Shown: in pieces, positions 2,395 through 36,918 of the stretch
How the letters are laid out: the number at the start of each line of letters is the position of its first letter
Position numbering within the stretch: the first letter of the stretch is position 1
NCBI RefSeq assembly: GCF_964355755.1
Contig: NC_092676.1
Coordinates: 13,808,288-13,872,287 of the forward strand
Direction: 5' to 3'
DNA length: 64,000 bases
Source: Antedon mediterranea
Lineage: Eukaryota > Echinodermata > Crinoidea > Comatulida > Antedonidae
The notes under the pieces: model-generated
Told to the model about the DNA's origin: nothing
The model's database searches: none
The model's input: the letters and a program-made list of their open reading frames with translations, nothing else
Program-made: the position numbers and the translations under genes

Positions 2395-2570
2395 CATACT
2401 ATATGAACACATGAGATGGAAAGATTAGACCCACGAGAATAAAGAATGTATATCATTTGTGTAATATTAATTTTTTAATTCTATTCTATTAAGTACATTG
2501 ATAAATAAGTATGTATGTACTCAACGGAAACTTTACATAAGCATGTATATTAGAATAAACAAGGCCAACA
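2395..2570. repeat. Diverged fragment of the repeat family complete at 44819-45757
   Basis: The stretch around 'gaacacatgagatggaaagattag acccacgagaataaa' (split here for length) matches 19565-19760 and, in reverse complement, about 45320-45480. It is a truncated, diverged copy of internal sequence only. Confidence 0.65.
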
Positions 2571-2636
2571 GCCATAAGTCGCGTGCTCTCAGAAAAAAAT
2601 GAACTTTCAAAAAGTAATGTACTTTAAACTTCTATG

Positions 2637-2745
2637 TACATCAAAACAGTTCAAAAAGTACAGAAATACGCAAAGTGATACCCGACAGACCGACCGACCG
2701 ACAGACCGACCGACATAGTGAACTATAGAGTCACGTGCACGTCTA
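2637..2745. repeat. Dispersed repeat with internal GACC/GACA microsatellite (copy 1)
   Basis: The order is: CAAAACAGTTCAAAAAGTACAG, a short spacer ending GTGATACC, a GACAGACCGACC-type microsatellite, then CATAGTGAACTATAGAGTC. The same order of blocks occurs at 16673-16815, 16815-16965 and 17512-17640. No coding content is visible; the element class is unknown. Confidence 0.8.
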
Positions 2746-2870
2746 AAAACGAAATGAAACGCTTCTATTGGGCCGTAGCATCATGAGACAAACTTTTAGT
2801 CGCGGGGGATACGCATAAGGTAAAACAAACGACCGATTGAGGGCTCACTACTTTTTAACGTGGATGTAAA

Positions 2871-2916
2871 CATCATATTCTTACTCGTCTTCAAGGAACA
2901 ACTTCAACTCCAGTTA
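2871..2916. repeat. Target-site duplication, left copy (46 bp)
   Basis: Identical to 4095-4140 over 46 bp (up to 49 bp counting ambiguous A residues). It flanks the 5'-truncated LINE. Before the insertion this was leader sequence of the Helentron-like element. Confidence 0.95.
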
Positions 2917-4094
2917 TAGAGTAATAGAGTACAATAATGTAGACATAAGAATTAGCCAATTTGCAGATGACACTGTGTTTTTTCTCAAAGACCAAAACTC
3001 AATTAAACCGATTATAGATATACTGGATGAATTTTCTATATATTCTGGACTCAGAATTAATTATGAAAAAAGTAACATTACGAGAATAGGATCGTTAAGA
3101 AACTGCGACTATAAAACGCCATCTGAGAAAAGTATTTCATGGACCAAAGGCCCAGTAAAATACTTGGGTGTTAATATTTCTTGTAATTTTAATGATATTT
3201 TCAGACTCAATTTTCCAGATAAGGCTAAAAATGCTGAACAAGTATTAAATATGTGGAAACAACGCTCACTTACTTTGTTTGGAAAAGCAACTATTATTAA
3301 GTCACTGTTTCTCCCGATATTCACGTATGTTTTCTCAAATTTACCAGACCCACCCGATTGTTTCCTTCAAGATATTCAAAGTAAAATTTTTAAATTTATA
3401 TGGAACGGAAAACCCGATAAAGTCAAAAGAAAAGTCATGCTTAACAATTTTGACGAAGGAGGGTTAAAAATTTGACAACAAACTTAATTGGAAAAACCTT
3501 TTCTCAAATTTACACGCCTGTACAAATGACACTAAGCTAAAAAATGTTCAATTTAAATTTATTCATCGTATAATTTATACAAATACAATGCTCTTTAAGA
3601 TGTCAAAGGTCGATTCACCAATGTGTAGTTTTTGCAAGGAAAAGCAGGAAACACTGCTACATATGTTCTTTGAATGTGATCTGGTAAAGAAAATTTGGGA
3701 AAATGTAAAACAATATATGTATCGAAATATCAACAATAACTTAATTATCACCAAAGAAAGTATATGTTTTGGTTTTGGAAAAACACACAGTGATGCAAAC
3801 ATTTTAATTTTAATTACAAAGTGGTACATATTTAGTTGCAAAATCAAAAAACAATTACTTAATTATAATCATTTATTTCATATTTACCAAAAATACAAGG
3901 CAACCATATTATTAGCAAAATGATTATTAAGTGTATTTTTGCGATACATTATTTTGTTTTCTTTAATTTCATTACTCTCTTATTTTTGAGAGAGTATTAT
4001 TTCGTTGTAATAGTTACGTTGCCTTTATATATTAATTTTGTATTATGTATGTGATGAAATGAAATAAAAAAACAAAACAAAAAACAAAACAAAA
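2917..4094 (+). mobile_element. 5'-truncated L1/Tx1-like LINE insertion
   Basis: The insertion starts inside the reverse-transcriptase palm domain and ends in an A-rich tail made of AAAAC units (about 4064-4094). It is bracketed by a perfect 46-bp direct repeat. Being cut at the 5' end with an A-rich 3' tail and a target duplication is the classic outcome of target-primed reverse transcription. The 3' UTR (3924-4063) has no further open frame. It lies 3 bp before the start codon of the downstream element's first gene, in its leader. Confidence 0.93.
2918..3923 (+). pseudogene. LINE reverse transcriptase C-terminal fragment (L1/Tx1-like)
   Basis: The frame opens directly at the truncation point and contains the palm motif QFADDTVFF (FADD form of YxDD), then GLRINYEKS and KYLGVNIS, then WKQRSLTLFGKATIIKS and a GGLKI block. 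These are the post-palm and thumb landmarks of L1-type elements. The frame stops at 3473-3475. A different frame (3588-3923) continues with a C-terminal CCHC-type zinc knuckle (CSFCKEKQETLLHMFFEC), so a deletion with frameshift removed part of the region between the two. No endonuclease and no upstream RT motifs are present. It is a dead-on-arrival copy. Confidence 0.9.
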
Positions 4095-4140
4095 CATCAT
4101 ATTCTTACTCGTCTTCAAGGAACAACTTCAACTCCAGTTA
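4095..4140. repeat. Target-site duplication, right copy (46 bp)
   Basis: Perfect match to 2871-2916. The next bases are ATA followed by the start codon at 4144, so the LINE landed within the leader of the gene rather than in its coding region. In the uninterrupted arrangement the frame is open upstream as far as 2824 but contains no in-frame Met before 4144. Confidence 0.95.
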
Positions 4141-4143
4141 ATA

Positions 4144-7100
4144 ATGGCTCTACAATCACTCCTTCTCATAAACACAGCAAATGGAGATGATAGAAACGCT
4201 TGCTTCTGCAACAGCATAATTCAAGTTCTACGAAGAACTTACTCAATTAGAAACCATATTGTGCAAGCTATGACTAGTCATTCTCTCAAATGTGAATTGA
4301 AAGATATTTTTCTTGCTCAAGGAACTTCAGAAATAAAAAGTGCTGCTAAAATTCGGAAATTGATTGGTGGGGACTTTGCAGTAGGCACACAGCAAGATGC
4401 CAAGGAATTCATGGATACTCTCATTCAACGGTGTTATCCCTCACACCAAAATCCCTTCAGATTCACTATGAAAAATCAGTTTCATGCACTAAGAACTTCT
4501 CACTGTTCTTCTTGTGTTCAAGACCCAATAAGTGACAGATCGTTTTCTCTTCATCTGCCTCTTGAGAATGAAAAAGAAACAACACCAGTAAGACTCCAAG
4601 AAATGATAAATCGCTATTTCAGTCCAAGCACTGTAAATAAGCGCTGCAGTAAATGTTCAAATCCATCTGAACAGAACTTTACTGTTCATAAACAGTTCAC
4701 AGAGTCTGGACCATACTTGTGCATTCAACTTTTAAGGTTCAACAATGCTCTTAAAAAAATGAATCATTTTGTAAAGGGTTCATTTGAAATCGCCGTACAG
4801 AATGTTAATTACAAACTAATAGCTGTCATCAATCACCAAGGACTATTCCATAGTGGACACTACTATTCTTTGCTGGAGTGTGCTGGAGGATGGTATAAAT
4901 GTGAGGATGCCAAGTTTCCTGAGAGAATAGCAGAAAATTCAGTTTTCTCTGTTCTCAATTATGTTTACATTTTTGAGAAAGTTTCTGAACTCGGAGCAAT
5001 CCAAAATCGATCATCAAACACTACAACACAACACTCTACTATTTTTATTAAAACTGCTTCAATTGTTGATGCTCCTGAAAAGAGCTCAAATACACAACTT
5101 TGTTCTGGTCCAAGTAACACACACAACAAAGTTAAGACTACAATTAATGTTTTGTCAGAAGACTCTGATGAGGAGGATTTCATTTTCATTACTCATCCTC
5201 CTAAAAAAAATCAACATTCTTTTTCCAATTTACCAAAAGATATTAGTAGTTGGTTCAATGATGGAAAAACTGAGCCAGACAGCATTTCAAATGTTTCAAG
5301 TGAAGTTATACAAAAAGCATCTGATGCCAAATCTTCAAAAAAAATATCCACCTTAATATCTGATAACAAGTCTAAAAATTATATTGGTCAATATACAGAT
5401 GACTTTGAAACAAGAATCTACAGTCACAATGTGAAAAGCTGCTTCATTCAACTGGGCTCAAGAGTTGATGAACAGACAAAACTTTCATCTTCCACAGAAA
5501 CAATCAGCATTTCGTCTGAAAACTCAGAACAAAATTCATCAGCTACAAACTCTTCTGAATCCAAACTCCAAAAACAGCCAAGGAATGGCTTGGGTGCATA
5601 TACTGATATTCATGGAACAAGAATCTTTATGAAGGCCTGCTCTGTGAACCTAGGACAAAGAATTCAAAGTGATGACTTATCTAACAAACTCACAACCAAA
5701 GAAAATTTGGAAAAGTGCATTGGCTGCAACAGAGCATTTAAAAGAATCATTAGACATTTGCAACAAAAATCCACATGCAGAAACCATTATGATCTTGAGA
5801 AATTGAAAAGTGAATCAATGTCAAGGAGAAAAAAAAAAGTACAAATAAATAAGAAAAACTATCGTGAAGCAAAAAGACATGAAAATGAAAGTCTGTACAA
5901 ACAGAAATCTGCAGCAGTAAAACAAAACCAAAGAGAATCAGAGAGGCAAAAAAATGAACAATCCTTTCGGCAAAAAAGATCAAAGGAAAAGCAAAGTGAA
6001 AGAGTTTCAAAGAGTCAGAAGAATGAAACTTTGTTTAAACAGAAACTAGCAGAAGAAAAACATAAGCAAAGAGAATCTGAGAGACAGAAGAATGAAACGT
6101 TGTTTAAACAGAAACTAGCAGAAGAAAAACATAAGCAAAGAGAATCTGAGAGACAGAAGAATGAAACTTTGTTTAAACAGAAACTAGCAGAAGAAAAACA
6201 TAAGCAAAGAGAATCTGAGAGACAGAAGAATGAAACGTTGTTTAAACAGAAACTAGCAGAAGAAAAACATAAGCAAAGAGAATCTGAGAGACAGAAAAAT
6301 AAAACAGCTTTTAAGCAAAAAAAGGCAGAAGAAAAGCAAAGTGAAAGAGTTTCAAAGAGTCAGAAGAATGAAACTTTGTTTAAACAGAAACTAGCAGAAG
6401 AAAAACATACGCAAAGAGAATCTGAGAGACAGAAGAATGAAACTCTGTTTAAACAGAAACTAGCAGAAGAAAAACATAAGCAAAGAGAATCTGAGAGACA
6501 GAAAAATAAAACAGCTTTTAAGCAAAAAAGGGCAGAAGAAAAGCAAAGTGAAAGAGTTTCAAAGAGTCAGAAGAATGAAACTCTGTTTAAACAGAAACTA
6601 GCAGAAGAAAAACACAAGCAAAGAGAATCTGAGAGACAGAAGAATGAAACTATGTTTAAACAAAAACTAGCAGAAGAAAAACACAAGCAAAGAGAATCTG
6701 AGAGACAGAAGAATGAAACTCTGTTTAAACAAAAACTAGCAGAAGAAAAACATAAGCAAAGAGAATCTGAGAGACAAAAAAATAATACGGCTTTTAAGCA
6801 AAAAAGGGCAGAAGAAAAGCAAAGTGAAAGAGATTGTAAAAGACAAAAAAATGAAACAGCTTTTAAGCAAAAAAGGGCAGAAGAAAAGCAAAATGAAAGA
6901 GAGACAGAGAGACAAAAGGATGAACAGTCATTCAAGTTGAAACGTGGAGATGAAAAACAAAAAGGTAGACTGAAAGGTGCTGATTCAGCATTCAAACGGA
7001 AACAAGCATTTCTTGAATCAATTCGAGATGGTAGGACATACATATGCATTTCATGTCACCGCAAGTTATACAAGAATGGTGTTCATGCCTTAAGAAGTGA

Positions 7101-7560
7101 TTGGGAATCTGAGCTAGAAGACCATCATCCCGGATATAAAGAGAAATGCCTTGGACCAATAATAAGAAAGAAAATGCCCCGTCCTCACAAACCTAACTCT
7201 CCTGATGATCAAAGTTCTGACTTTATTTGTTTCACTTGCCATACATATATGATAAAAGGCAAAATGGCTCCGATGTCCAATCAAAACAATTTACAATTAG
7301 TAGACATCAGCAATCATCCCGAGTTGAAATTAAAAGATTTGGAAAACCAGCTGCTTGCTCGGAACCTAATCTTTCAAAAGATAAAACTTTTGCCAAAAAG
7401 TAGGTGGAATGCAATGATTGACAAAACTGTCAATGTGCCTATACCAGAAGAGGAAATAAGCGACACAATTGAACACCTCCCTCGAACTCCAAAAGAGGCT
7501 CATGTTATACCAGTGCAGCTGAAAAGAAAAAAGAGCATGAAAAACACAGGAATATGTTAA
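4144..7560 (+). pseudogene. USP (C19) protease - zinc finger - coiled coil - Helitron N-terminal region
   Basis: An 1138-codon frame. Residues about 8-280 form a ubiquitin-specific protease fold. The Cys box is NACFCNSI with candidate nucleophile Cys20. A CSSC...CSKC metal-binding pair and a LLRF strand follow. The His box is HSGHYYSLL with candidate His239, and CEDAKF supplies the likely third residue. All catalytic positions look intact. Residues about 412-441 and 481-507 repeat a motif of the form YTDxxxTRI...CxxxLGxRI. Residues 525-548 form a CxxC...H...C...H zinc finger. Residues about 570-945 are 23-residue charged repeats predicted as coiled coil. Residues about 965-1130 hold CISCH and CFTCH motifs and the GKMAP...LPR...KRKK landmarks seen at the start of many Helitron Rep-helicases (DUF6570-like). 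The stop at 7558-7560 comes from a frameshift near 7540; the next frame continues the same protein. ATG 4144 is the first in-frame Met. Confidence 0.85.
5850..6960 (+). repeat. 69-bp in-frame tandem repeats encoding charged 23-residue units
   Basis: The unit encodes variants of ESERQKNETLFKQKLAEEKH plus KQR. Roughly a dozen and a half units are visible, the most alike at 6010-6300 and 6360-6500, with AFKQKKAEEKQSERVSKS-type variants interspersed. The pattern suggests recent unequal exchange of multi-unit blocks. The antisense strand is also open across the repeats, giving a spurious 160-codon frame at 6567-7049. Confidence 0.93.
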
Positions 7561-8533
7561 CTGTGAAAAAATCATTAAATGCAATGAAAGAATGAAAAGC
7601 ATGGGAAATCGTTTCTATCAGGATGTAAATGCAAATCTTGAAGAATACACAAAGAAATGTCATGAGGCAGATGATGAGAACTTTCTCTTCTCATCAGTAA
7701 GTAAAAAAGATGCCAGTAAAGAAAATCTTCATGCAGAAGAGGCTTTCAGTGATATGGATTCATTTGAAAAAGAATTGTTTGAGCCTAAGTGTGACAATCA
7801 AGATGACAGTGACCAGAACCCTAGTGGAGGCTATGAGAAAGTGTCAGATGGCCAAGATGAACAAGAAAATAAAGAAGAAAAAAAATTCATTGAAAAAGAC
7901 TCCATCAGGAAGCACCAATTCAATTATAACTCCAGCAGTTGCTTTGGGGAAAATATGCCAGAAATCAGCGCTAAAAATAAAGTTGATGATTACAAACCTC
8001 TTGTCTTAGCTCCAGGAGAGGGAAAAATTCCTACAGATTTTCCTGAAAACTGGGAAGCTTTATCATTTCCAACTCATTTTCCTAATGGGAGAAATGATAA
8101 AGATGAGGAAAGACAAGTTAAGCTCAGAGATCCATTTTACTTCACTCAAAGGGCAATGAATTATGACCCCAGATTTGCAAATGATCCAGCTTATATCTTT
8201 GCAGCTAATGCCTATACTGAAAAGAAACAAATCAACAACAATATCAGTTTGGCCTTTCAAAGAGGAAACAAGAGACTCTCTAGTAGTGGTCAATTAACCT
8301 ACACATTAGATGATCCACACATGGTTCTTGATGGAATAAAAAACACTCCCAAATACTGGCAAAAGGCAAGATATGAGCTGAACGCAAAAGTTGAAAATCT
8401 TGGACCTTTTGACATGTTCTTTACATTGTCTTGTGCTGATATAAGGTGGCCTGAAAACTTTACATCCATATTAGATGGTCACAACTTAATCTATGAAAAC
8501 ACACATGGTGAGGAACCGTTGATGGACAATTGA
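7544..8533 (+). pseudogene. Helitron-like N-terminal domain of Rep (frameshifted continuation)
   Basis: The frame is already open upstream of its first ATG (7592) and picks up the protein after the frameshift near 7540 (residues QEYVNCEKIIKCNERMKSMG). An acidic linker follows. Then come FPTHFPNG, a block of aromatic and charged residues, KYWQKARYEL, and LGPFDMFFTLSCADIRWPE. The last is the signature of the Helitron-like N-terminal domain found just before the HUH motif. The frame stops at 8531-8533 where a second frameshift, probably with a deletion, precedes the Rep His motif. The usual segment between these blocks is missing. Confidence 0.88.
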
Positions 8534-8536
8534 CCA

Positions 8537-9290
8537 CTAAAACTACAGAATTGAATTCCAGTTCAGAGGAGCTCCACATACACATGGAGTTTTATGGGTG
8601 GACTGGAACAAAGTAACCCAGATTCCAAAACAGCATGTTGAAAATTTCAAACAAGCCAAAACACTGATAAGATCCAACAGTGAACTGTCTGATCAACACA
8701 AAGATTCTATGGCAATGATAGCGGATCATGCTATATCTGTGTCACTGAGAGATTCCTCTGTGTCTGAAATAGTGAAAGAAGTGCAAGTTCATCACCATAC
8801 TAACAAAGCCTGCCGAAAGTATGGAACAACTTGCAGATTCAACTTTCCTAAGTTTCCAACAAGAAAAACTTTGATAAGTTCACCCTCTAATTATGCTTTT
8901 AACAGTGAAGAAGAGAAAAACTCAAAAATGACAAGGTACAAAACAGTCTTAGATGCCGTAAAAGAGATCCTAGAGGATGATGATAAGATGAAAAAAGTGT
9001 GTTCACACAAACAGAAAGAACTGCAAACACTTGTTAATCTTGACAAAGACAAATGGAGAATAAGCCAGATTATTCAAAATGCAGAATATAACAACAACAA
9101 ACACTGTTCTGTTCCAGCTAATTTACATCATCATTTTCAATGAAAAATCAAGGAAAATGGCATGGCAGATGTTATTCAAATCAAAGCTGTACATGATGCA
9201 ATGGCAAACAACAAAATTAAAATTGATGAGCTGTTAGAAAAGAGAATTGAATTCATGGTAACTTTTCAATTGAAAAGTTTTCTGATGTAT
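8537..9290 (+). pseudogene. HUH Rep nuclease core, part 1 (two-His motif)
   Basis: Although the first ATG is at 8598, the frame is open upstream and includes YRIEFQFRGAPHTHGVLW. PHTHG at 8574-8588 is the HUH metal-binding motif of Rep endonucleases. Downstream, HHHTNKACRKYGTTCRFNFP is the conserved Cys/His cluster that follows it in Helitrons. A TGA interrupts at 9141-9143. The same frame then continues (MADVIQIKAVHDAM) until a frameshift at about 9260-9290 moves the protein into the frame of the tyrosine motif. Rep normally nicks the element end and stays covalently attached through tyrosine to start rolling-circle-type transposition. Confidence 0.87.
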
Positions 9291-9640
9291 GCTCCAAATT
9301 GGAGGAATATGAAAATGCTTTATCTGTCAACAATCGTGGATACATGCCTTTCTATAAAAGAGATGTTGCTGAAATAATGGTCAACAGCTACAATGCTGAA
9401 TGGATATCTACATGGAATGGAAACATGGACATTCAGTTGTGCCTTGACTTTTATGCTATCATTACATACATAAGTGACTACTATTCCAATGATGACTCTG
9501 GAACCATGGATATGCTCATTAATGCTCTAAAAGATGCATAAAATGAGGATTTAAGGACCAAATTGAAAACGGTTGCTTCAGTGTTTCTTACACACAGACA
9601 AATGGGGGAAAGTGAAGCTTACTAAAGACTTCTCCCACAC
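9290..9640 (+). pseudogene. HUH Rep nuclease core, part 2 (tyrosine motif)
   Basis: The frame reads EEYENALSVNNRGYMPFYKR, then EIMVNSYNAEWISTWNGNMDIQ, then ITYISDYYS. The tyrosines at 9467, 9479 and 9482 are the candidate catalytic residues. The same frame runs on into the helicase, interrupted by TAA at 9539-9541 and again at 9623-9625 (between GESEAY and RLLPHMHL), so Rep and helicase were one polyprotein. Translation would now end within Rep. Confidence 0.87.
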
Positions 9641-11344
9641 ATGCATCTGAAGGACTCAAATATTGAGGCAGTTTTTGCCCCTACTGGATTTAATCCTAGT
9701 AATTTTCTGAAAAGAATTGATGATGATGCTCAAGTTGATGGTAAAAATCTCATTGAAGTAGAAGGTCGTGAAGGAAAATATCAAGAAAAGGCTTCAATGT
9801 ATGAAAAGTATCTAAGAAGAGATTGTAATTTGCAACCTGAGATTAAAGACCTATGCTATGCTCAATTTGTTAAGCGATACAAGTCCTTCAACTACAAGCA
9901 ATTGGAGTCCTCAAAGATGTATGACATAAATGAAAATTTAATCATAAACAACATCATCGTCACTGAAAGAATAGAAGAGAATGAGAAAGTCAATAATCTT
10001 CCTATATACATCAGGATCAAAAACACTCAACATGATGAGCCATCTTTTGTCAAGTTAAGAAGAGAGCTTGTCCTTCGTTGTCACAAATTCAAGAAAAGCA
10101 AAAACCTCCATGAACATCTTGTCTCTGAACTTCAGTTATTCCATCCACATACAAACAATCCCATGGATGGTCCAAGCTACACTCTTGAACAAGAAAAAGA
10201 AGACCTAAATGCCTGTCAAAAAACATTTAGTCAATCAGAATTTTACAAGGTGAAAAAAATGTTAATGCCGTACTTAGAAAATGTTGAAAAGGGTATGGAA
10301 TCAGCGCAAGAAATGAGGAAGGACATTGGGGATGTCCTTGATCCCCAAAATGAGCAAGATAAAGCTGAATGTGAGGAAATTGGACTTGAAGATAATCCTG
10401 AGTATGCAGCAAAGGATTTTGAAGGCCTTTTTGAAACTGAGGACCCCACTCCATCAACTGGATTATTCAAGAGAGTTACACCAAGCTCAGATAACACTCT
10501 CTTTCCACTCATTCGACAAATGGATGATGCACAAAGACTAGTGGTTAATAAAGTAATGCAATACATCAAAGAAACAATTATCTCCAGAAAAGAACCAGCA
10601 ACAATCTCTGTTCCAAGGTTTATAATCCAAGGTGGAGCTGGTGCTGGAAAAAGCTCCGTCATTCATGTGGTAGTGCAGTTAATGGAGAAACTCTTAAGAC
10701 AATCTGGAGATAATACTGACAATCCTTATGTTCTTCCACTCTCATTTACTGGAACAGCGGCAGCAAACATTGATGGAATGACACTGTATAGTGCCTTCAA
10801 TTTCCCATTCAACAATCAGTTTTTATCTTTACCAGACAAATTACGAGACAAAAAGAGAGATAAGCTGAAACTTCTGAAAATGATCAACATTGATGAATTC
10901 AGTATGTTGAAGGCCGACATGCTCTACCAAATTGACCTTCGTCTACGCGAATTGATGGAAGCTTCAAAAGAGGCTTTTGGAGGTTGTGCAGTCCTATTGT
11001 TTGGTGATATTCTGCAGTTGAAGCCTGTAATGGGAAAATATGTGTTTGATTTGCCTATATCATCAGACTACCACGCCTCTTTCTACATAGAATCACTATG
11101 GAATACCTTCAGAGTCATTCATCTGTTAACTAATCACAGGCAAGGTGAAGATCATGTCTATGCTGATCTGTTAAACAGAGTAAGGACTGGAAGTCAGAAT
11201 GAAAATGATATCACCGTACTGCAAGAAAGGGTAAGACCTTTAAACCACCCTGACATTCCAAAAGATGCCCTTTTTGTAACATGTACAAACAAAGATGTAA
11301 ATATTATAAACAACACCAAATTGGAAGAAGTGCAAGAGCAGTAA
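9641..11344 (+). pseudogene. PIF1-like helicase, N-terminal and core motifs
   Basis: A 567-codon frame in register with the Rep tyrosine motif. After a linker comes the helicase: Walker A GGAGAGKSS (about residues 330-338), a GTAAANI motif, Walker B INIDEFSML, the GDILQLKPV motif III and a NHRQ motif IV. These are the SF1B PIF1 landmarks, which in Helitrons unwind the displaced strand during transposition. The frame ends at TAA 11342-11344, but the same frame continues immediately into the remaining motifs, so this is an in-frame nonsense change rather than a natural end. Confidence 0.92.
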
Positions 11345-11955
11345 ATAGATATTCCTGCACAAATCTGCAGTACGGCTCAAAAAGAACCAAAATTCAAAAC
11401 ATCCAATGATGGTTCTATTTTCAACACTCCCCTTCAAAGGCATCTACAACTCAAAAAAGGGGCAAAGGTTATGTTGACATACAATGTCGATGTAATTGAT
11501 TGTTTAACAAATGGAGCAATGGGGGAAGTTGTTAGTTTTATTTTTGACCAGAAAGGCAGAGTCAAAACAATTCTAGTTCATTTCAACGATGAAAAAGTTG
11601 GAAAAGAAAGACGCCTCAAATATGGTAGTTTGCAACAACAGTATCCTGGTATTCATGTTACCCCTATTGAGAAAATCGAGTTTAAATTTTGTTTATCAAA
11701 AAAACAAAGTGGTAATCAGATGTTAGCTGCTGTACAGTTTCCCCTCAAACTTTCCTTTGCCTGCACTGCTCATAAGATGCAAGGAGCAACCGTGGCCAAG
11801 CCTAACTCTCTTATCCTTGATTTAAGAGGTGTTAGAGAGCCAGCCCAAGCTTATGTCATGCTTAGTCGGGTACAGGCAATTAGTCAACTGTATATAATTG
11901 AAAAAATTCCATCTGATAAACTATATCCATCTAAATTAGCAATGACAGAGCTTAA
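11345..11955 (+). pseudogene. PIF1-like helicase, C-terminal motifs V-VI
   Basis: Same frame as the preceding segment, carrying LKKGAKVMLTYNVD, LTNGAMGEVV, LKLSFACTAHKMQGATV and AYVMLSRVQAISQLYI, the final PIF1 motifs. The apparent stop at 11969-11971 lies inside an inserted element that starts after TTAA at 11952-11955. In the pre-insertion arrangement codons TELK run directly into RLSDIS of the endonuclease at 15851 onward, in frame. Confidence 0.93.
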
Positions 11956-12779
11956 GAGCCATTGTCTGTAAAAATCAAAGATTTGGTGGCAGATGTAAAA
12001 AAATGGATTTCTCTCAAATTTTTACCATGAATAGACATTTCAATAAAAAGCATATCTACAACATTCATTTTAATTTTTAGCCTCCGTTGCCATGACAACG
12101 GTCAATTATCCAAATTTTGATGTTTTTGCCATTTTTCACAGATTTTCTATAGTGAAAAAGTACAAACTTGTATACTTATTTTAACCAAAAATACTTACAT
12201 TATACAGTTTTTGTTTATAGCAGTGTAAACAACATGTATTGAGTTCCATTTAATGTAGAAAAAAAATTAATTACAAAATGGAGTTTGGTTGATACCATTA
12301 TTTTAAAAAGGGGTGTTTTTAAAAAATATTTTTTTTATAAAAGTATACCTCATAAACGTACCTATAACTTCCAAAGTGGTGTTTTTAAATCAATGAGGTT
12401 TTTTAATTTGATAGTCAATAGGTTTTTCAACAATAATCACGAAAAAAACACTGGGGTAAATTTCGTACATAGGTTTTGTGTTGCCAGGAATATACGAAAA
12501 ATGCAAAAAATATAACAAAATATCAACAAACAAAACACATGAAACACAATTTAAATATGGCTAATCCAATAATAAAATGTATATATGGCTTGTCATATTG
12601 CTACTAGAGTCATACAAATAGTTTAGATAAAATAGGAGAATGTGTTGCCAGGTTTATTTCAAATAATTGCCAGAAAAACAGTATTTTGCATTGAAATATT
12701 TAGTTGATGGAAAATAATGTTAAACTTGGAAATAATTGAGTCAATGGTTTTTATAAATTTTTAAATCTATTTTGTGTAA

Positions 12780-14450
12780 AGAGATACAGAAAGACCTCCC
12801 AAAAAATCTGACCTTGTAAATAGGTCATTTGAGGTCAAAAGGGGTCAGATTGCAAAACAGGACAGGTCCCCACTTTACTACAACTATTAATGTTTTATCA
12901 AAATTTACAAGATAGTTCATAACAATTCTCAACAATTTTCATATTTTACCTATAGTGTTACCTTAGCAACCATTTCTATGTGTAACTAAGGAAAGTAATT
13001 TTTAAAAAACGTAAAAAATGGCGTTTTTATAAATACAAAGAATTGATTGCATTTGTACATGTTTCTCAATTTTACTTCTACTGCATTCCATTAATGACAA
13101 ACTTGACCTTGTAAATTCATTCATTTTGAGGTCAACATTTTACCATAGTAACTGTTTCTATGCGAAAATTTAAAAAAAATAAGGGGTTTTTCATAAATAA
13201 AAAACATTTTTTCTACATAGTTTTACATTTCTACTTTTTGCCAAATTTACTGAATCCTAATAATCTCAGAAAGAAAGTCTTGACGAATCTGAATAAAGGT
13301 TAAAAAAAATGACCTTTAGTGTTATCTTAAACCTGTTTACGTAACAAATGATATTTAAAAAAAAAATTAAATATGGAGTTTCATGAAAAAATAAAAATTT
13401 TACATATTGAGGTCAAATGACATCAACATTTTACCTATAGTGTATTGTAGCAACTGTTTCTATACGTAACTAAGTACAATATTTTTAATATGGGGTTTCA
13501 TGACTACAAACAATTGATTACATAGCTTTACTACCTTTTCCCAAATTTACTTATCTACTGAATCCCAGAAAATGTCTGACCTTGTGAAAGGGTCATTTTT
13601 TGGGTCAAGTTATGTCAAAATGAATTATTTATGTTATCTTAGAACCTGTTTCTATGCGTAACTAAGGATAATTGTTTTGTTAAATACAGTTGAACCTCCC
13701 GTAAGTGGCCACCCTCGGGACCTGGAAAAGTGGCCGCTTACGGGTGGTGACCCCTTACGGGAGGTTCTGCCGATAAAAGGCCAAAATCACCTATTATGGC
13801 TATATACGATATTCTTAACGAAACGAGCCTCTCAATTTTCCAGCTAATTGTAGGCATATTATTATTTATAATCATGTGGTTTAGTAATTTTTAGCTTTTT
13901 TAGACAAATTTTAAAAACTTTTATCATATGAAAAATGGTCGGTCAAAATCTGTGTAGTTTTCTCATCTCTTCACAGTAATGTTTTTAAAACCTCTTCAAA
14001 ATAAAGCTAATATATAAAGAAATACAATAAACATGCACCTCTAATTCATAGGTCCATGCAATAAGTATCACATTTTTCGATTGGCCGCTTACAAAAAATC
14101 TCATTTTTAGTATAAAAAGGTGCTCGCAGCTGCTTACGGTAAGCACCAAATGCACTAATTAGATAGGAAGAACAAACAGGCTTTTCAAAGTGCGTCCGTT
14201 AAGGGAGGTGGCCGCTGTAAATCAAATATGGGGTTTTCATGAATAAAAATAATCACAGAAGAAAGTGCTTACGAATATGACCTTGTGAAACGGTAATTTG
14301 AAAAATGCAAATAAGGCATGCCTGCTAATAATCTACAAATTTAAATTTGTATGAGATAAATATGCAAAATCTAAAGAATATCTCATTTTTAGTTACCATA
14401 GTAACTGTTGCTATGCATAACTAAGGGAAATTAAATAATTATCAGATAAT
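12780..14450. repeat. Degenerate internal repeats of the TTAA element
   Basis: Blocks resembling 'accTGTTTCTATGCGTAACTAAGG' (split case for landmarks) recur near 12966, 13148, 13450, 13643 and 14400, and CTGACCTTGTGAAAGGGTCA-type blocks near 12810, 13105, 13580 and 14278. The spacing is irregular (about 180-300 bp, longer across the nested element at 13687-14217). They look like old tandem duplications inside E1. Confidence 0.7.
13687..14217. mobile_element. pogo/Tigger-like short element (TA target)
   Basis: The 531-bp segment starts CAGTTGAACCTCCC and ends GGGAGGTGGCCGCTG, with imperfect inverted ends, and is flanked by TA on both sides. GTAAGTGGCCAC near the left end pairs with GTGGCCGCTTAC about 20 bases further on, a subterminal hairpin. 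CAG...CTG ends with TA targets fit pogo-like Tc1/mariner relatives. No transposase is encoded. Its base composition is clearly richer in G+C than the surrounding E1 sequence. Confidence 0.65.
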
Positions 14451-15850
14451 TATTAATTAATAATTATTACTGAATCCAACCATCACAGTAAATAAAATAT
14501 AGAATTTAAAACCAATATTTAATAATAAAGTGTGATATTTTACATGCTGACCTTCAATGAAATGAAATTTCAAATCAGGGCTTCAATATTTGTTATGTAG
14601 CATTAACATACCTGAGTATATCATTGACTTTTGATTGGTTCTATTTTGGGGAGGGAAAAGTGGTGGATCCAGGACTTTTAAATAGTTAGGTGGTTGAAGG
14701 CGATGGTCTAAAAACTTTACTTTATGTCCTATCTTTTGCATTGCAATTTTTAACTTGGGGTGGGTGGGGGCTTGGAGAAAAGGGGGAGGTGGTTGGATGG
14801 AGGAGTTTGAATCCGTCTATTCATTGGGGCGATAGTAGCGGCAGTGTGGGTGGTGCTTGAATGCATGCATTTGACACTCTATAGTGGATGATCGACCAAA
14901 GTGTTGCAGTTTATCTTGTTGTGGTTATAGTCGGGGTGGGGGTGGGGAGGGGTGGTAGTCAAAAGTGGTGGTGGATGGGCATATGGGATCTGCTTAGGTT
15001 AGCAAATAAAAGAAGTAAACAAATGAAAGAGGAGCTTCAAAATAAGAGAGGAGTAATCTGTTGCAAAGATTAAAATTCACAACGATCTGATAATTTATTC
15101 AAATTTCCAGAGGATATAACCTATAAAATGACATTAAAACTGGGAATTACAGAATCTATAATTAAAAATTAATTTTTTTTCTCACAACACAACTAGAACT
15201 ATATAAAACATTAAGAATTTTTCTGACCAAGTTTCAAATCAAATAATCAAAGAAAATAAAATGTTTTTACTAATATACCATGGTTTTTTTTATATAAAAA
15301 TGCCTATGTTTCTCGCAACACTGCTTGTAGATTTTAAATTTACCCCAGTATTTTATTTTAGAAATCAATTATTAAACATTAGAACTACCTATTTGTAATA
15401 AATCAGCTAAAAAAATACACCACTTTGGGCGTTATGGTGAAGTAAAGTTTAGTTGCATTGAACAATTTAAAAAAAGTGAAAAACACCCCTTTTTAAATAA
15501 ATGGTATCTCCCAAAGTATGAAATAAAAAAAATAAAAAAATTTGAAACAGGTACACAATGCATTGTTATTATGCATACACTAATTATTTTTTATAATTAA
15601 ATGAACAACACAAAAATATCGTTCATCAAAGTAGTGCCAATATCCATTTTAAAAAACCTTAAAAAAGGACAAAATTTGTCAAAAACACAAATTTGGCCGT
15701 TGCCATGGAAATATACGTTTGAAATAAAAAATACTTCATATTTGATTTCTCTCAACACATATATAGCCATGTACAAAATTTGAAAGAAATCCATTTTTAT
15801 GAGTCTGCCACTTTTTTTGATATTTCTTTGATTCTTACAGACAATGGCTC

Positions 15851-16497
15851 TTAAAAGGCTTTCTGATATCTCCATGAACAAAATTGAATCACTTATCAGG
15901 AAGAGTATTGGTATCTCAAGCTTAAGTATTCGGTCTTTACCTGATAAAATCCATGATCTTAAAGTAGACTATACATTGAATCTGTCTATGGTTGTCTGTC
16001 TACAAGAAACATGGTGTGAAGATGACTACTCCAACGACCACTTAAATATTGATGGATATTATCTGCACTTAACCAATCGTGGAAAAGGAAAAGGAATTGC
16101 TACCTATTTCAAAAAAGGTTTTTATCTTTCTGAAGAAGTAAACAAAGAATTATTTCAAATGACCAAATGTTCAAGTAGATATCTGCATGTGATAAACGTG
16201 TACAGGTCTCAAAATGCTTCCTCTGCTGAGTTTTTACAGCATTTAGACTCACTCATTGATGATTGTGAACAGTGTTATATTGTAGGTGATTTCAACATTG
16301 ATATCTTACGTACTGTACACCCCATTGTAACCTGGATTTTCTCAAAAGGTTTCAGTCAGTCTGTGCAATATCCAACCCATGAAAAAGGGGGACTTATTGA
16401 TCATGTTTACATCAGATCAGAGAGAGGTTTTGAACTCTTCACACATTGGCCTTACTACTCTGACCATGCTGCAAACTGTCTTGTTTTGCATGAATAA
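15851..16497 (+). pseudogene. EEP (AP-endonuclease-like) C-terminal domain of the Helentron
   Basis: The frame contains LSIRSLPDKIHDL, LQETWCEDD (metal-binding Glu), GKGIATYF, YIVGDFNID (Asp/Asn), GGLIDHVYI and YYSDHAAN (catalytic His), the ordered motifs of the endonuclease/exonuclease/phosphatase fold. Helentrons carry this domain at the C-terminus after the helicase, which is where it lies once the TTAA element is removed. The ATG at 15844 is contributed by the inserted element's end, so it is not the native start. All catalytic motifs are intact. The natural stop is at 16495-16497. Confidence 0.9.
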
Positions 16498-16672
16498 AAT
16501 GTTATATAATATATAAACTTTGCTCTTGCTGTTTCTTGCTGTTGTTCTTGCTCTTTTAATAAACAAGCATAGTGAACTCTTTTCTCTTAGGAAGCTTAGA
16601 TAGAATATTAAATGACACAACAGCCCGCATATAATAACTTAGAACAACTTAGAAATGTAATGCCTTAGAAAA

Positions 16673-16975
16673 GCGATACATCAAAACAGTTCAAAAAGTA
16701 CAGGAAAGCGATAAAACGCATAGTGATACCGGACCGACAGACAGACAGACCGACCGACAGACAGACCGACCAACCGACCGACATAGTGAACTATAGAGTC
16801 GCTTCCACGCGACAAAGCGATACATCAAAACAGTTCAAAAAGTACAGGAAAGCGATAAAACGCATAGTGATACCGGACCGACAGACAAACAGACCGACAG
16901 ACAGACAGACTGACAGACAGACCGACAGACAGACGGACCGACCGACATAGTGAACTATACTGACCGAAATTACTG
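16673..16975. repeat. Tandem pair of GACA/GACC microsatellite-bearing repeats (copies 2 and 3)
   Basis: Two units about 142 bp apart, each running AAAGCGATACATCAAAACAG, GGAAAGCGATAAAACGCATAG, GTGATACCGG, a GACAGACC microsatellite, then CATAGTGAACTATA. Copy 2 ends with GAGTCGCTTCCACGCGAC, whereas copy 3 is cut short after CTATA. Reading frames here (for example 16723-16950) are microsatellite artefacts. Confidence 0.9.
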
Positions 16976-17511
16976 AACATGTTTAAAAATGTTGAAATGT
17001 TTAAAAACATTTATTTTTTTTTAATTTACACGTGCGTAGCCTGTCACTTTTGACGTGCTCGTATAACGTAATTTCGAGTTGAAAAGTAAGTCAAGAAAAA
17101 AGAGATCAGGCAAAAAGAGTGCGCAATAACATTTAACGCGCAGTGCGCGCGCAAAAATCTGCGTACTCATGGCAATTTTGTAAACGCTTAAAATTGCCTG
17201 AAACGTACTCTTATTTCATCGAAAATAAATTTTGAAAATTTTAAGCGCGCGTGCGCATGCGTTACATGCGCTACGCACGTAATTGTATTACCATATGATG
17301 ATTTATGCCCTGAAATTTATGAGTACCAAATTTTATTTAATTGTGATTCATGGTTGTTAAGATATGATTACAAACGTGATTTCGTTAAATCGTGCGTAGA
17401 CCGCGTAATTTTTTATTGCGCACCGTGAAAACATAACCACATTGATTCCTGGCCATAAGGAATATTCTGTGAAAAATTGACTTAGCTAGATTAAACTGAT
17501 ATCAAGATAAG
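16976..17511. other. Non-coding spacer with CpG-rich, alternating purine-pyrimidine patches
   Basis: No coding signal. GCGCAGTGCGCGCGC (about 17140) and GCGCGCGTGCGCATGCG (about 17247) are alternating purine-pyrimidine stretches of the kind that can adopt Z-DNA. CGTGCGTAG-type words recur, suggesting an old repeat. Confidence 0.5.
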
Positions 17512-17640
17512 GTCAGAAAGCGATAAAACGCATAGTGATACCGGACCGACAGACAGACAGACAGACCGACAGACAGACCGACAGACAGACAGACCGACCG
17601 ACCGACGTAGTGAACTATAGAGTCGCGTCCACGCGACTAA
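17512..17640. repeat. GACA/GACC microsatellite-bearing repeat (copy 4)
   Basis: GAAAGCGATAAAACGCATAG, GTGATACCGG, a GACA/GACC microsatellite, then CGTAGTGAACTATAGAGTCG and CGTCCACGCGACTAAAA. It has the same block order as copies 1-3 and the most complete right end. Confidence 0.9.
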
Positions 17641-17870
17641 AAATGTACATACTGTATTTTTGTGTAATGTAATTTTTTAATTTTGCTGACTTACTCGGAC
17701 TGTGTCATACCTAACAAACACACAAACGTCACACACACCCACACAGTACTAACTAGAAGATATAGACATGGGCTTTAGAGACTAATAATTTGGCCTAATA
17801 GTATTAATAGAAACTATAATTTTAACACGTAATTCTTTAGTAATAAATTCTATTAAACAACACCATAAAC
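17641..17870. repeat. Internal fragment of the 44819-45757 repeat family
   Basis: Matches 19725-19930 almost throughout (shared GAGACTAATAATT, GGCCTAATAGTATTAATAG and TAACACGTAATTCTTTAG blocks) and matches about 45060-45330 in reverse complement. No terminal inverted repeat is present, so it is truncated on both sides. Confidence 0.85.
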
Positions 17871-19564: not shown

Positions 19565-20136
19565 GTGACACCCGCTTAGACCCACAAGAATAAAAAATGT
19601 GTATAATTTGTGTACTGTAATTTTTTAATTCTGCTATTTTATTATCAAACAATATGCATGTACTCAAAGGAACTTTAAAAATGCGCGTATATGAACACAT
19701 GAGATGGGAAGATTAGACCCACGAGAATAAAAAATGTATTTTTGTGTAATGTTTATTGTTTAATTTTGGCTGACTTATTACTCGGACTGTCATAACTAAC
19801 ACACACACCTCACACACACCCACACTACTAGAATAGAAATGGGTTTAGAGACTAATAATTAGGCCTAATAGTATTAATAGAAACTATAATTTTAACACGT
19901 AATTCTTTAGTAATAAATTATATTAAAAACTACGCCGCTATTCTTTTATGAAATCCCACGCGGCAACCACAGCGGAGATTAGGCCTAGAATCGTACCGCA
20001 CTTGTGCAATCACTTCTTGTTGCTATACGCTTGGGTGCACACGGAACAAGAAAATTTAACTGATGAATTATTCATGTTTATTTTGTGACGTTTCATGAGG
20101 GGGTCCCCAACTTATGTACGAAAAAAAAAATCGCGT
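19565..20136. mobile_element. Truncated copy of the 44819-45757 MITE-like family
   Basis: Collinear with the reverse complement of 44819-45480. Internal sequence (19565-19930) is followed by the terminal repeat TGTGACGTTTCATGAGG..CCAACTTATGTACG (20083-20125), ending at about 20136 in TCGCGTCCGG. The other end is missing. A LINE begins immediately after the terminal repeat. Confidence 0.8.
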
Positions 20137-21660
20137 CCGGAACAGTTTACAGTTTGCCATATTAACATACGTAGTCTAATCGTTCCAGGTAAACTAGCTG
20201 AAATTCAACACCTAGCAAATTTAAATAACTATGATATTATTGCTTTAACAGAAACATGGCTAGATCAAACTATCTTGAACCATGACATTTTACTAGACGC
20301 TTATCAAGAACCTATTAGAAATGATAGAAACCGCCATGGCGGCGGATGTGCTCTTTATATATCTAATTCTATACACTTAGTTAATTCCCATATTATTTGT
20401 AATGATCTCTTGTCAGATGTGATAAGGTGTGAAATACAAGTTTCAAACTGGACGATTTTGACTTATGTATGTTATAGGCCACCACAAAGTGATGTTCAAT
20501 CTGATCAGGATCTACTTGACTATTTTCAAAACAGTACTAATAACTTTGTTTTGTCTCGACACAGCTTAACTTTAATGATGGGCGATATGAATGCTCAAAA
20601 TAACAACTGGTACAATGATGGTAACACAAATAGATTTGGAAAATCATTTTACGAATTTTTACAACAAAACGGTTTAACTCAACACATCAATATGCCAACA
20701 CGTTGTATAAAAGACCAACGGTCTTGTATTGACCATATAGTTACTAGTCAAAATGTATATATTAATGATTTTGGTGCATTGTGCCCACTTTTAAATTGTG
20801 ATCACAGTCCAGTATATGCAAATATTGATATTCGTATCATACGGGACAAGCCATACAATCGTAAAATATATCTTTTTGAAAAAACTGATTTTAATTTATA
20901 TCGCAATGCTCTTAATTCTGTAAATTGGGAAGAAGTTTATTCATCTTCAAAGGTTGAAGATGTTTGTCATAATTGGATTGACTTATTTAATAATTGTGTT
21001 GATAACTATATTATATCTAAGATTATAACTGTGCGTCCTAATGACAAGCCTTGGATTAATGCGCATATTAGAGCTCTTATTCGCAAAAGAAATCGCGCCC
21101 ATTCCACTGGAAATAACTCAAATTCGCATATGCAACGTTTTAAGAAAATTCGCGCAAAAGTTGTTAAAGCAATAAGAAAAGCTAAACAAACTTTTTTGGA
21201 TAAACAATTTGATTTAATAATGAATAAAAACTGTGATTCAAAAACGTGGTGGTCTACCATACATTCAGTTTGTAATTCCAAACAATATTATAAGATTCCT
21301 CCAATCAAATTAAACGATGATGTCCTAACTTTAAATAGTGAGAAAGTTAAAGCTTTTAACAATTATTTTAAATCTCAATCGTTTATTCCTAATCATGATG
21401 ATTTTCCTTCGGACTTCACATATAGAACTGCATCGAGACTCTCAACTCTAAAATTATCTGTTGATGAGATCATGAAATTATTAACTATGCTGGATAAAAA
21501 CAAGGCGATGGGACCTGATGAAATTCACAGTATCATACTAAAAGAATCTGCTGAAATTATTGCACCCCATTTGACAAAGCTTTATAACTTCTGCATAAGC
21601 CAAGGATATTTTCCTGTGGAATGGAAAAAATCAAATGTCATTCCTCTGCATAAAAAGGCA
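20137..21660 (+). pseudogene. LINE ORF2 part 1: EEP endonuclease and RT fingers
   Basis: Motifs in order: FTVCHINIRSL, ALTETWLDQ, GGGCALYIS, MGDMNAQNNNW, RSCIDHIV and CDHSPVYANID (endonuclease, complete), then a linker and the RT start AMGPDEIHSIILKE and WKKSNVIPLHKK. The frame appears to start at ATG 20095, but the first 14 or so residues are translated from the flanking MITE terminus. A one-base frameshift near 21655-21660 shifts the continuation (NYRPISIL) to another frame. Confidence 0.9.
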
Positions 21661-22454
21661 ATAAATCCCTTATTGAGAACTACCGCCCTATATCCATACT
21701 TTCAAACTTTGCAAAAATGTTTGAGCGTGCAGTTTTTGATATAGTATATAAATACTTTGTGGATAATAAACTTCTTACTCAATTCCAATCTGGTTTTACA
21801 CCAGGTGACTCGACAACTTATCAACTTCTTTATCTTATAGATACATTTAATAGAGGTTTAGATTTAAGGAAAGAAGTAATCTCGGTATTTTTGGATATTT
21901 CCAAAGCCTTCGATAAAGTTTGGCATAATGGGATTATATACAAATTAAATCAATATGGAATTAATGGCACTCTTCTAAAATGGTTCCAAAGTTACTTAAA
22001 CTCACGTGAGCAACGTGTTATTATTGAAGGAACTACCAGTCCTTGGGTGACCATTACAGCAGGAGTACCCCAAGGATCTGTTTTGGGTCCATTTTTATTT
22101 ATTGTATTCATAAATGATATGGTTGATAATATCAAATCTAATATTAGTTTATATGCAGATGATACTTCGTTATATGATATTTGTACAGATCGTAATATTT
22201 CAGAACAAAAATTAAATGGTGATCTTAATGTCATTTATAATTGGGCAAAAAAATGGAAAGTAACATTCAATGCTAACAAAACGAAAGCTATACTGTTTAC
22301 ACGTAAACATTTAGATAACTATGTTAGTTTAAATTTCAATAATGTAAATCTACAATTTGTAAATGATCATAGGCATCTTGGTGTAATGTTTAATGCAAAA
22401 CTCAAGTGGGATTCCCATATCCAATCTGTAATTAACAAAGCGTCTTTATCTTAA
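21660..22454 (+). pseudogene. LINE ORF2 part 2: reverse transcriptase core
   Basis: The frame opens with NKSLIENYRPISILSNFAK just after the frameshift. It contains SVFLDISKAFDKVWH (motif A), AGVPQGSVLGP (motif B), SLYADDTSLYDI (motif C, YADD intact), KTKAILFT and HLGVMFN. It stops at TAA 22452-22454 inside the otherwise conserved INKAS...NMLRR segment, an in-frame nonsense change. Confidence 0.92.
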
Positions 22455-23352
22455 AATATGCTACGTCGTGTCAAACATTCTACCTCGACAGGCTCTCTGT
22501 CACATTTACATATCACACGTTAGACCATTAATGGAATATGCAGCTCCTGTTTGGTGTAATATTCCAGATAAATTAAGTGATGAACTAGAAAATATCCAGA
22601 TTTCTGCAGGTAGAATATGTACTGGTGCGTGGAAACATACAAGTCATAATGCATTAAGACAAGAATTAGGCTGGTTATCATTGGAAAAACATAGACAATT
22701 TCTTAACCTAATACTGTTTTTTAAAATTATTCATAAGTTAACACCAGTGTATCTTTACTCCTTATTTAATTTTTCTGACAATATTGAAGTTTATAACTTG
22801 CGTAACATCCGAAATATAATAATTCCATTTTGTAAGACCACATCATATCGTTTATCTTTTGTCCCATCTATTATAACACATTGGAATGAGTTAAATAATG
22901 AAATAAAAAATTCCTCATTTCTTGTTGAGTTTAAAAAATTGCTACTGAAATCCAATATGTTTGAAACAAAAAAACGTTCTTATTATGATACAGGTGATAA
23001 GAAGATTAACCAAAATCACACTAGAATCCGACTTGGTTTCAGCTGTCTCAATTCGCATTTATTCTTACATGGACTTCGGGACAATCCAAATTGTACTTGT
23101 GGCTTTAATGTTGAGAATCCGCTTCATTTCTTATGTTACTGCCCTAATTATAATACACAAAGAGATATTCTACTTGTAAGCGCTAACTCAATTATTGAGG
23201 ATATCTTAGCCAAGGATTTTTCTTTAACATTTAATTTTACATTTTTAAGTGAAATTTTTATTTTTGGTTCCGATCTTCTATCGAATTGTGAAAATGCTTT
23301 ATTATTTTATTATGTACAACAATTTCTTGTTAATTCTGGAAGATTTAATTGA
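22455..23352 (+). pseudogene. LINE ORF2 part 3: thumb and C-terminal Cys-rich region
   Basis: After a second frameshift near 22490 the protein resumes as LCHIYISHVRPLMEYAAPVW, through the thumb, to a C-terminal CTCGFNVENPLHFLCYC zinc-knuckle-like motif. The stop at 23350-23352 appears to be the native end. In total ORF2 carries two frameshifts and one stop, so it is inactive but not old enough to have lost any domain. Confidence 0.88.
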
Positions 23353-29809: not shown

Positions 29810-30599
29810 TTATCGAAAATATTCCTCAAGGGCAGGCGGATCGAGTTGAAAGCTTCTTGACGTAATATTGCCATAAAGACAAGTGTGGGCATTTGTCAAC
29901 AGACAACAAACTACATAGATTTTCCCAATTGCACTCAGGCCTATTTTTTGTGTTTTTTTAAAGTCTACAAATTTCCAGTTTTCTACAATGTCTCTAAACA
30001 GCCATTCAACAGATACTCTAACCTGGCTCATAGATCTGTTGTAGTCAACTTGAGCCTGAGTTAAGTTTCCTTTAAAAGGAGCCTGTGTTAAGTTTCCTTT
30101 AAAAGGAGCCTGTAAATGAACACGAAGCGGGTATGCAGGGTCTCCATAGATACAAAGGGGATCTCCATTTCGACGTACAGCATTGCGTTCTAACTTGTGT
30201 AGTAGGTTTGATTCCCTCAACATGAAGGCATCATGACGACATCCTTCGATGGGTCCAAACAGATTTGCTATAAGTCCATTTGGCGTGACGACTGATTGAA
30301 ATTTTAATGAGTGAACACGCTTATGACCATTATAAACTATTCTTTGATTTTCTCCAGGCCTGCAAATCGGACGCACTGTCCCATCAAAGAAACCCCAACA
30401 ATTGTCAAGTGCAGCACCGGAACTGTGTATTGCAGCAGCAAAACGTTCCAAAAGATTGGCACCATATCAATGTACCTGCATGGATATGCAAGTCTCTTAA
30501 GCAAAATGCACACTGTTTCAATGCCAGTAATTTTAAGTCCATTTACACATCTAATTTCATCCGCTATCCGTAGAGCTCTCTGCAGTCTGTAGATATCTT
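29810..30599 (-). pseudogene. Harbinger DDE transposase, exon 2 (catalytic domain)
   Basis: On the minus strand, acceptor AG at 30600-30601 is followed by EDIYRLQRALRIADEIRC and LKRLAYPCRYIDMVPIF, in frame with exon 1. The protein then jumps to LERFAAAIHSSGAALDNC in another frame: the usual 40-60 residues between these blocks are missing, indicating a deletion with frameshift near 30450. Catalytic motifs remain: FFDGTVRP (Asp), IYGDPAYPL (Asp), VSVEWLFRD (Glu). A 27-bp tandem duplication gives QAPFKGNLT twice. DDE_Tnp_4-type transposases cut and rejoin the element ends in the nucleus. The exon ends at stop 29810-29812. Confidence 0.88.
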
Positions 30600-36859: not shown

Positions 36860-36918
36860 ACTTGTTTAGGCTAGGCTAGGCTATATCAGTAAAATGTGAT
36901 AACTTACTTCTCAAGTAA

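Follow-up and report, generated by a model that had tools for sequence, protein, structure and literature searches.

Can a Helentron, a rolling-circle transposon, carry a USP (C19) deubiquitinase as an inherited part of its polyprotein, and what would such an enzyme do for it? The question is raised by a locus of the crinoid Antedon mediterranea, in a 64,000-nucleotide stretch of DNA (hereafter the window; C7:13808288–13872287) where an earlier note had described a Helentron-like element at 4144–16497 whose polyprotein begins with a USP-type domain. We searched the 354-Mb, 18-contig genome of A. mediterranea, the one genome covered here, for further copies (C-numbers denote its contigs and L-numbers the loci compared). 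Our preferred answer, which we consider probable, is that the window holds a decayed copy of a Helentron whose family polyprotein starts with an inherited USP deubiquitinase, likely removing ubiquitin during transposition.

The USP domain and its copies

The domain lies in an open reading frame at 4063–7560 (+) that is stop-free over 1,165 amino acids (aa) and has an ATG at 4144 inside it:

4144–5013 (+): USP (C19) deubiquitinase domain, by PF00443 (E = 2e-20) and PDB USP alignments; the end at 5013 is an estimate
4201–4203 (+): Cys20
4504 and 4645 (+): CxxC pairs
4858–4860 (+): His239
4903–4905 (+): Glu254
4906–4908 (+): Asp255

The protein read from this ATG matched the Pfam UCH/USP profile PF00443 over profile positions 7–239 of 254, with the match stopping at aa 262, and all 34 of the 34 PDB chain rows returned by phmmer at E ≤ 1 were ubiquitin carboxyl-terminal hydrolases, USP21 being the best (7.3e-8). 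The motifs follow in order: a Cys box at aa 18, QQDAKEF at 83, CxxC pairs at 121 and 168, LLRF at 196 and a His box at 238. The OTU profile PF02338 gave no match in window 4144–7557 at E ≤ 1, where PF00443 alone was reported, and had no row at the window's place genome-wide; the VTD profile PF04843 matched none of the scanned window frames, and none of its 51 genome matches lies at the window's place. The assignment of the opening domain to the USP class, and the proposed comparison of C19 with OTU profiles, were thus borne out.

Aligned with USP21, USP15 and USP36, the domain retains Cys20, His239 and Asp255, and the Cys and His motifs are also present in the copies on C1 and C2. The claim that all USP catalytic positions are intact holds for these three residues but not for the canonical third site, which is Asn in USP21 and USP36, Asp in USP15 and Glu254 in the window; the residue after it is Asp in all four proteins. 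The relevant passages of PMC10867860 describe this adjacent Asp as more than 96% conserved in human USPs and as vital in four of the five USPs tested (USP1, USP15, USP40 and USP48), with USP7 depending on the canonical residue. Deubiquitinating activity of the window domain is plausible.

Searching the genome with the USP domain yielded 12 matches at seven loci (14 candidates scored). Most or all of the domain is present in the window, at C1:33.09M and at C2:18.91M; residues 1 to about 70 only are found at C11:8.36M (L006), C2:9.18M (L024) and C5:21.02M (L022); and C10:14.50M represents a divergent USP lineage with 41–43% identity in pieces. The C1 copy is closest, with both USP pieces 98–99% identical to the window in aa and DNA from the USP onward 98.8% identical over 2,007 bases. 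The copy at C2:18.91M (97% over USP residues 1–136, 53–90% in the remaining pieces) is an internal deletion that keeps USP, linker and repeats, helicase end and EEP. Both L006 and L022 pass from about residue 70 directly to EEP, and L024 keeps residues 1–68, with no later element part seen in the 2 kb compared. At C10 the USP, zinc finger, charged repeats and Cys-rich domain stand in the same order, with many stops.

Four loci (the window, C1, C2 and the divergent C10) therefore couple the USP to the same Helentron scaffold, and three more keep its first ~70 codons just inside the element's 5' end, so it is an inherited module of the Helentron family, and the arrival of a host gene upstream is excluded. 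Between the window and C10, 228 aligned USP codons have 46.5% aa identity, with proportions of differing synonymous and nonsynonymous sites (pS and pN) of 0.752 and 0.348; the resulting pN/pS of 0.46 (bootstrap 0.38–0.55), against 0.94 and 1.43 in shifted frames, is indicative only, because synonymous change is close to saturated and tblastn favours protein-like matches. Under the same limits, the Cys-rich domain (153 codons, 56.2% aa identity) gives 0.36, against 1.52 and 1.08 in shifted frames. These ratios are indicative of protein-level constraint on the USP between the two lineages. The comparison of substitution rates across copies suggested by the earlier note was indicative at this distance but not among close copies, where changes are too few to decide (window–C2: five synonymous, ten nonsynonymous).

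Deubiquitinases in other Helentrons of the genome

The nearest relatives by helicase (28–46% identity in pieces) are L011, L012, L013, L017 and L018 (C6:28656690). In L012 an OTU domain (PF02338, 2.8e-6) precedes a zinc-finger motif like that of the window and then charged repeats, the Cys-rich domain, Rep, helicase and EEP, and L011 and L018 have the same OTU region as L012. No OTU was seen in the stretch examined at L013 or at L017, the latter stretch stopping before its Cys-rich match. In a helicase tree of 13 rows, window and L012 form a pair with support of 99/99, nine other OTU-bearing rows falling outside it, and without the outgroup they are joined at 100/100. The outgroup consists of two rows, L026 and L027, taken as canonical Helitrons (L026 has PIF1 and Helitron_like_N and, over the 968 aa scanned, neither a deubiquitinase nor an EEP match); the nine rows were called OTU-bearing from genome PF02338 positions, Pfam scans covering L012 and L019 only. 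By these matches, the sister lineage carries an OTU in the slot held by the USP in the window family, in agreement with the earlier note's placing of the USP in the OTU position. By parsimony, OTU would be ancestral and USP derived.

USP and OTU were not found together. The 72 genome matches to the Cys-rich region merge to 70 loci, and among these listed matches, with windows of 5 kb for OTU and 12 kb for USP, 50 loci have an OTU upstream, five an OTU downstream, four a USP, none both and 11 neither; the 11 are an upper bound, because two of them have VTD and L018 has OTU-family sequence by tblastn. An OTU just downstream of the Cys-rich domain, at C1:6989022, C6:11574606, C7:9281556, C8:12196295 and C9:14021010, suggests another module order.

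The abundant Helentron families of the genome carry VTD and OTU on the N-terminal side. PF04843 (VTD, a herpes-tegument-like deubiquitinase) has an OTU at most 2.5 kb downstream in 49 of its 51 genome matches, and the intact L019 (3,078 aa examined) contains both VTD (PF04843, 3.3e-9) and OTU (3.4e-8). Since USP, OTU and VTD all occur in Helentrons here, three unrelated deubiquitinase families are present in the Helentrons of one genome. Many long open Helentron frames, of about 3,000 aa, are seen at L019 and other loci.

Anatomy, termini and neighbours of the element

By DNA comparison with other copies, the element extends beyond 4144–16497, the limits first proposed, to about 2558–17642, with two insertions inside. 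Its parts are:

~2558–17642 (+): whole Helentron copy
2577–2585 (+): 5' subterminal inverted repeat AGTCGCGTG, pairing with CACGCGACT at 17630–17638; each is unique in the window (exact-match scan)
2917–4091 (+): inserted fragment of a long interspersed nuclear element (LINE) with reverse transcriptase, in the 5' leader (PF00078, 2e-8 on 2870–3472); the C1 copy is uninterrupted
5716–5778 (+): zinc-finger-like Cys/His motif (our name), beginning CIGCNRAFKRIIRHL, against CKGCGKSFKRLKGHL in L012
5875–6924 (+): 69-bp coding tandem repeats, 15.2 copies, forming a charged linker (Tandem Repeats Finder)
6985–7557 (+): Cys-rich Helentron domain; 72 genome matches to window 6925–7557, self included; 43% identity to L012 over 106 aa
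7541–9538 (+): HUH Rep in three broken pieces (7541–8530, 8541–9140, 9251–9538; PF14214, 1.2e-8), its HxH motif presumably in PHTHGVLW
9626–11968 (+): PIF1-like helicase in two pieces (9626–11341, 11345–11968; PF05970, 2.7e-18; PF21530, 2e-6)
11956–15850 (no strand assigned): inserted 3.9-kb element with near-identical inverted ends beginning GAGCCATTGTCTGTAA and TTAA on each side; absent from the C1, C11 and C2 copies
15850–16494 (+): EEP (AP-type) endonuclease, the C-terminal domain of the element (PF03372, 5e-10 on 15832–16494)
16677–17642 (+): 3' terminal repeat units, (GACR)n arrays (Tandem Repeats Finder; other copies)
17621–17638 (+): final 3' hairpin AGTCGCGTCCACGCGACT, by position

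The USP frame thus runs through USP, linker, zinc-finger-like motif, 69-bp repeats and Cys-rich domain, and beyond it the same strand encodes Rep, PIF1 helicase and EEP in several broken frames, as the earlier note had read them. The zinc-finger-like motif is the first segment common to the window and the OTU-bearing L012 (the blastp segment pair, E = 4e-6, also spans the charged repeats), and the Rep pieces are 94–99% identical in aa to the C1 copy. The direct passage from helicase to EEP described before is true of the C11, C1 and C2 copies; in the window the two are split by the 3.9-kb insertion, which we take to be piggyBac-like by its ends and for which the single scanned frame, 12243–12512, gave no Pfam match. 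Because helicase and EEP adjoin in those three copies, EEP is part of the Helentron, and its assignment to a separate LINE was rejected. An identical 49-bp stretch stands on each side of the LINE fragment in the leader (2868–2916 = 4092–4140), a direct repeat long for a target-site duplication.

Both element ends are common to copies with different flanks. The 5' end is common to C1, C2, L006, L020 (C1:23350283), L021 (C6:6942763), L022, L024 and L025, and the 3' end to C11, L006, L020–L023 and L025. The 5'-most 146 bp recur at 40 scored places at 88–100% identity, including the USP copies of the window, C1, C2 and C5 (40 of 594 first-look candidates were scored), and the 3'-most 177 bp at seven genome places, the window included. 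AA precedes eight of the nine listed 5' ends, and A follows 11 of the 12 listed 3' hairpin ends, including eight taken as outer ends; the element itself may include these terminal As. The 3' hairpin folds modestly better than shuffled sequences (z = -1.73, 14 of 200 shuffles as good). No nucleotide match to the window element ends was found in the OTU-bearing L012 and L018, in stretches reaching 0.5 to 2.2 kb past their coding parts; the L019 stretch stops short of its element's ends.

L020 and L021 are short elements in which both USP-Helentron ends lie ~0.3 kb apart, and the USP Helentron may therefore act as autonomous partner to a larger family of non-autonomous elements, for which other partners are possible. 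At L021 the short derivative (66–336) lies within a tandem-repeat-like stretch (beginning GATGTGTAA), which might make the target site readable.

Outside the element, the window contains an open BEL/Pao-type retrotransposon frame of 1,877 aa at 31232–36865 (-; Peptidase_A17, 6.4e-47; RVT_1, 5.5e-9), a LINE at 20089–23352 (+) with an endonuclease frame (PF03372, 8.7e-13) and then frames resembling reverse transcriptase by eye, a DDE_Tnp_4 transposase piece at 29813–30466 (-; 2.1e-26) and a MULE-like piece at 50154–50618 (-; 3.2e-5, below cut-off). PADLOC reported no match, and of two pattern matches to relatives in viral contigs none was confirmed.

Role of the USP and likeness to known systems

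In the mechanism that we favour, the USP would fill an N-terminal slot upstream of zinc finger, charged repeats, Cys-rich domain, Rep, PIF1 helicase and EEP. It would most likely strip ubiquitin from the element's own Rep-helicase-nuclease during rolling-circle transposition, or else from host repair or chromatin factors, so that the transposition proteins might avoid being degraded through ubiquitin, or the repair response might be tuned. Protection from ubiquitin-directed control would be its likeliest role; we infer its catalytic activity, its substrate, its benefit to transposition and the direction of replacement.

Several observations count against this explanation. No intact USP-bearing copy was found in the genome, those examined all carrying breaks or deletions, and with USP sequence at seven loci the family is a small one. 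The C10 copy had no Rep in the 18.5 kb examined, and its USP lacks the catalytic His and reads Glu in place of Asp, by decay or as an inactive lineage. At C11:7.0M a copy with helicase, EEP and the later part of Rep shows no USP over the 11.3 kb ahead of its Rep; it also lacks the Cys-rich part and the first Rep part. The USP differs between window and C1 by only three synonymous and three nonsynonymous changes, and between window and L022 (70 codons) by one and four, a ratio of 1.16. Both helicase trees carry long-branch warnings, and a single-sequence AlphaFold2 model of the USP reached a mean predicted local distance difference test score (pLDDT) of 31. For the canonical third position of human USPs, the passages of PMC10867860 concerned list Asp, Asn, Ser and, once, Gln, but not the Glu of the window.

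The nearest rivals give the domain another task or none. One of the two roles first proposed is polyprotein processing, with the USP cleaving the long Helentron protein into Rep-helicase and other products. USPs require a ubiquitin-like substrate, and this speaks against such a role: the scanned frames showed no ubiquitin-like domain (short stretches between broken frames lie outside the scan), and the six GG dipeptides (LIGG and CAGG in the USP; PSGG, IQGG of Walker A, AFGG and EKGG elsewhere) include no RGG. Since the sole L-x-G-G, LIGG at aa 73–76, lies inside the USP itself, self-processing would be without a likely ubiquitin-type site. An N-terminal place in a long multidomain frame is indeed that of a processing protease, and cleavage between Rep, helicase and endonuclease is proposed for the Helentron OTU in the portion of PMC4067079 consulted, but the OTU and VTD of the same genome are deubiquitinase families too. 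Processing is thus unsupported and we consider it improbable.

Helitron-type elements capture gene pieces, and the USP could be passenger cargo from a host gene that brings the element no benefit. Such cargo would hardly be expected in frame at the polyprotein start, kept in two lineages at the identity and pN/pS given above, diverged together with the Cys-rich domain and never beside an OTU among the 70 Cys-rich loci. Gene-piece capture is stated in the abstract of a maize paper (PMC4528327), and recruitment from the host, as the earlier note supposed, fits the data, but the search with the USP gave no match outside Helentron loci (14 candidates scored) and hence no host donor; a passenger without benefit seems unlikely to us. 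The genome does hold 71 PF00443 matches, of which four rows are Helentron copies, and a fragment of a host USP gene might have come to lie upstream of a Helentron at this locus alone. This is ruled out by C7, C1 and C2, which share one arrangement in unlike flanking DNA, by the N-terminal piece at three more loci with the same 5' end and by the C10 lineage. A chance fusion is left with virtually no probability, and the earlier view that the USP belongs to the element is upheld.

Inherited deubiquitination thus remains the reading we prefer. OTU and VTD deubiquitinases are already known in Helentrons, and the USP is a third, unrelated class in the same position. Because it occupies the same slot in the same genome, apart from OTU and under indicated constraint, it amounts to a natural replacement experiment, which points to ubiquitin-removal chemistry, not fold, as the target of selection and opens the part played by ubiquitin in rolling-circle transposition to direct test. 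The replacement suggests that these elements need ubiquitin removal and can draw it from different enzyme families. A bolder version, which we entertain but hold to be somewhat doubtful, is that an obligate deubiquitinase slot is filled by at least three unrelated families (OTU, VTD and USP), that the USP replaced OTU by a module switch upstream of the zinc finger and that the Glu-Asp catalytic variant works; the use of at least three families would then make deubiquitination a required step of transposition and not an accessory.

The window USP aligns with the cellular USP21, USP36 and USP15 at the Cys box, at the His box and at the conserved Asp, and it also has QQDA and the CxxC pairs; it differs in its Glu at the canonical Asn/Asp position and in being fused to a transposon scaffold. 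Helinoto, a Helitron2 element of the icefish Chionodraco hamatus, reportedly has three deubiquitinase-like domains, to go by the title of a 2014 report by Capriglione, and so resembles the window element in kind; the novelty of a USP Helentron shrinks if one of them is a USP. With that caveat, no USP-bearing Helitron was found in the searched literature, as judged by titles, abstract starts and passages.

The portion of PMC4067079 consulted describes Helentrons and short derivatives with subterminal inverted repeats, a 3' palindrome, microsatellites and a C-terminal AP endonuclease, and its reference list includes elements with hitchhiking (GTCY)n microsatellites. The window element shares with them Rep, PIF1 helicase and a C-terminal EEP, and likewise subterminal inverted repeats, a 3' palindrome, microsatellite-like arrays and end-sharing short derivatives; its insertion context may be T-T-compatible as well (A and A on this strand). 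Its 9-bp subterminal repeat is shorter than the 12–15 bp of the mite families there, and its accessory enzyme is a USP where theirs is the protease OTU. A C19 deubiquitinase fused to a transposase is also recorded, in PMC2836005, for Trichomonas vaginalis XP_001314237.1 (transposase_11 plus Peptidase C19), but there the partner is transposase_11, in a protist, and not a rolling-circle Helentron. Closest in arrangement are the VTD- and OTU-bearing Helentrons (PMC9741609, in part; L019 here), which likewise place deubiquitinase domains toward the N-terminus of the polyprotein; OTU, VTD and USP are separate Pfam families, the VTD active site is Asp-x-His, and the passages of that paper mention no Helitron with a USP. 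In the same passages of PMC9741609, the VTDs of zebrafish Helitrons are active deubiquitinases, and its authors propose that different deubiquitinase classes may meet the same need.

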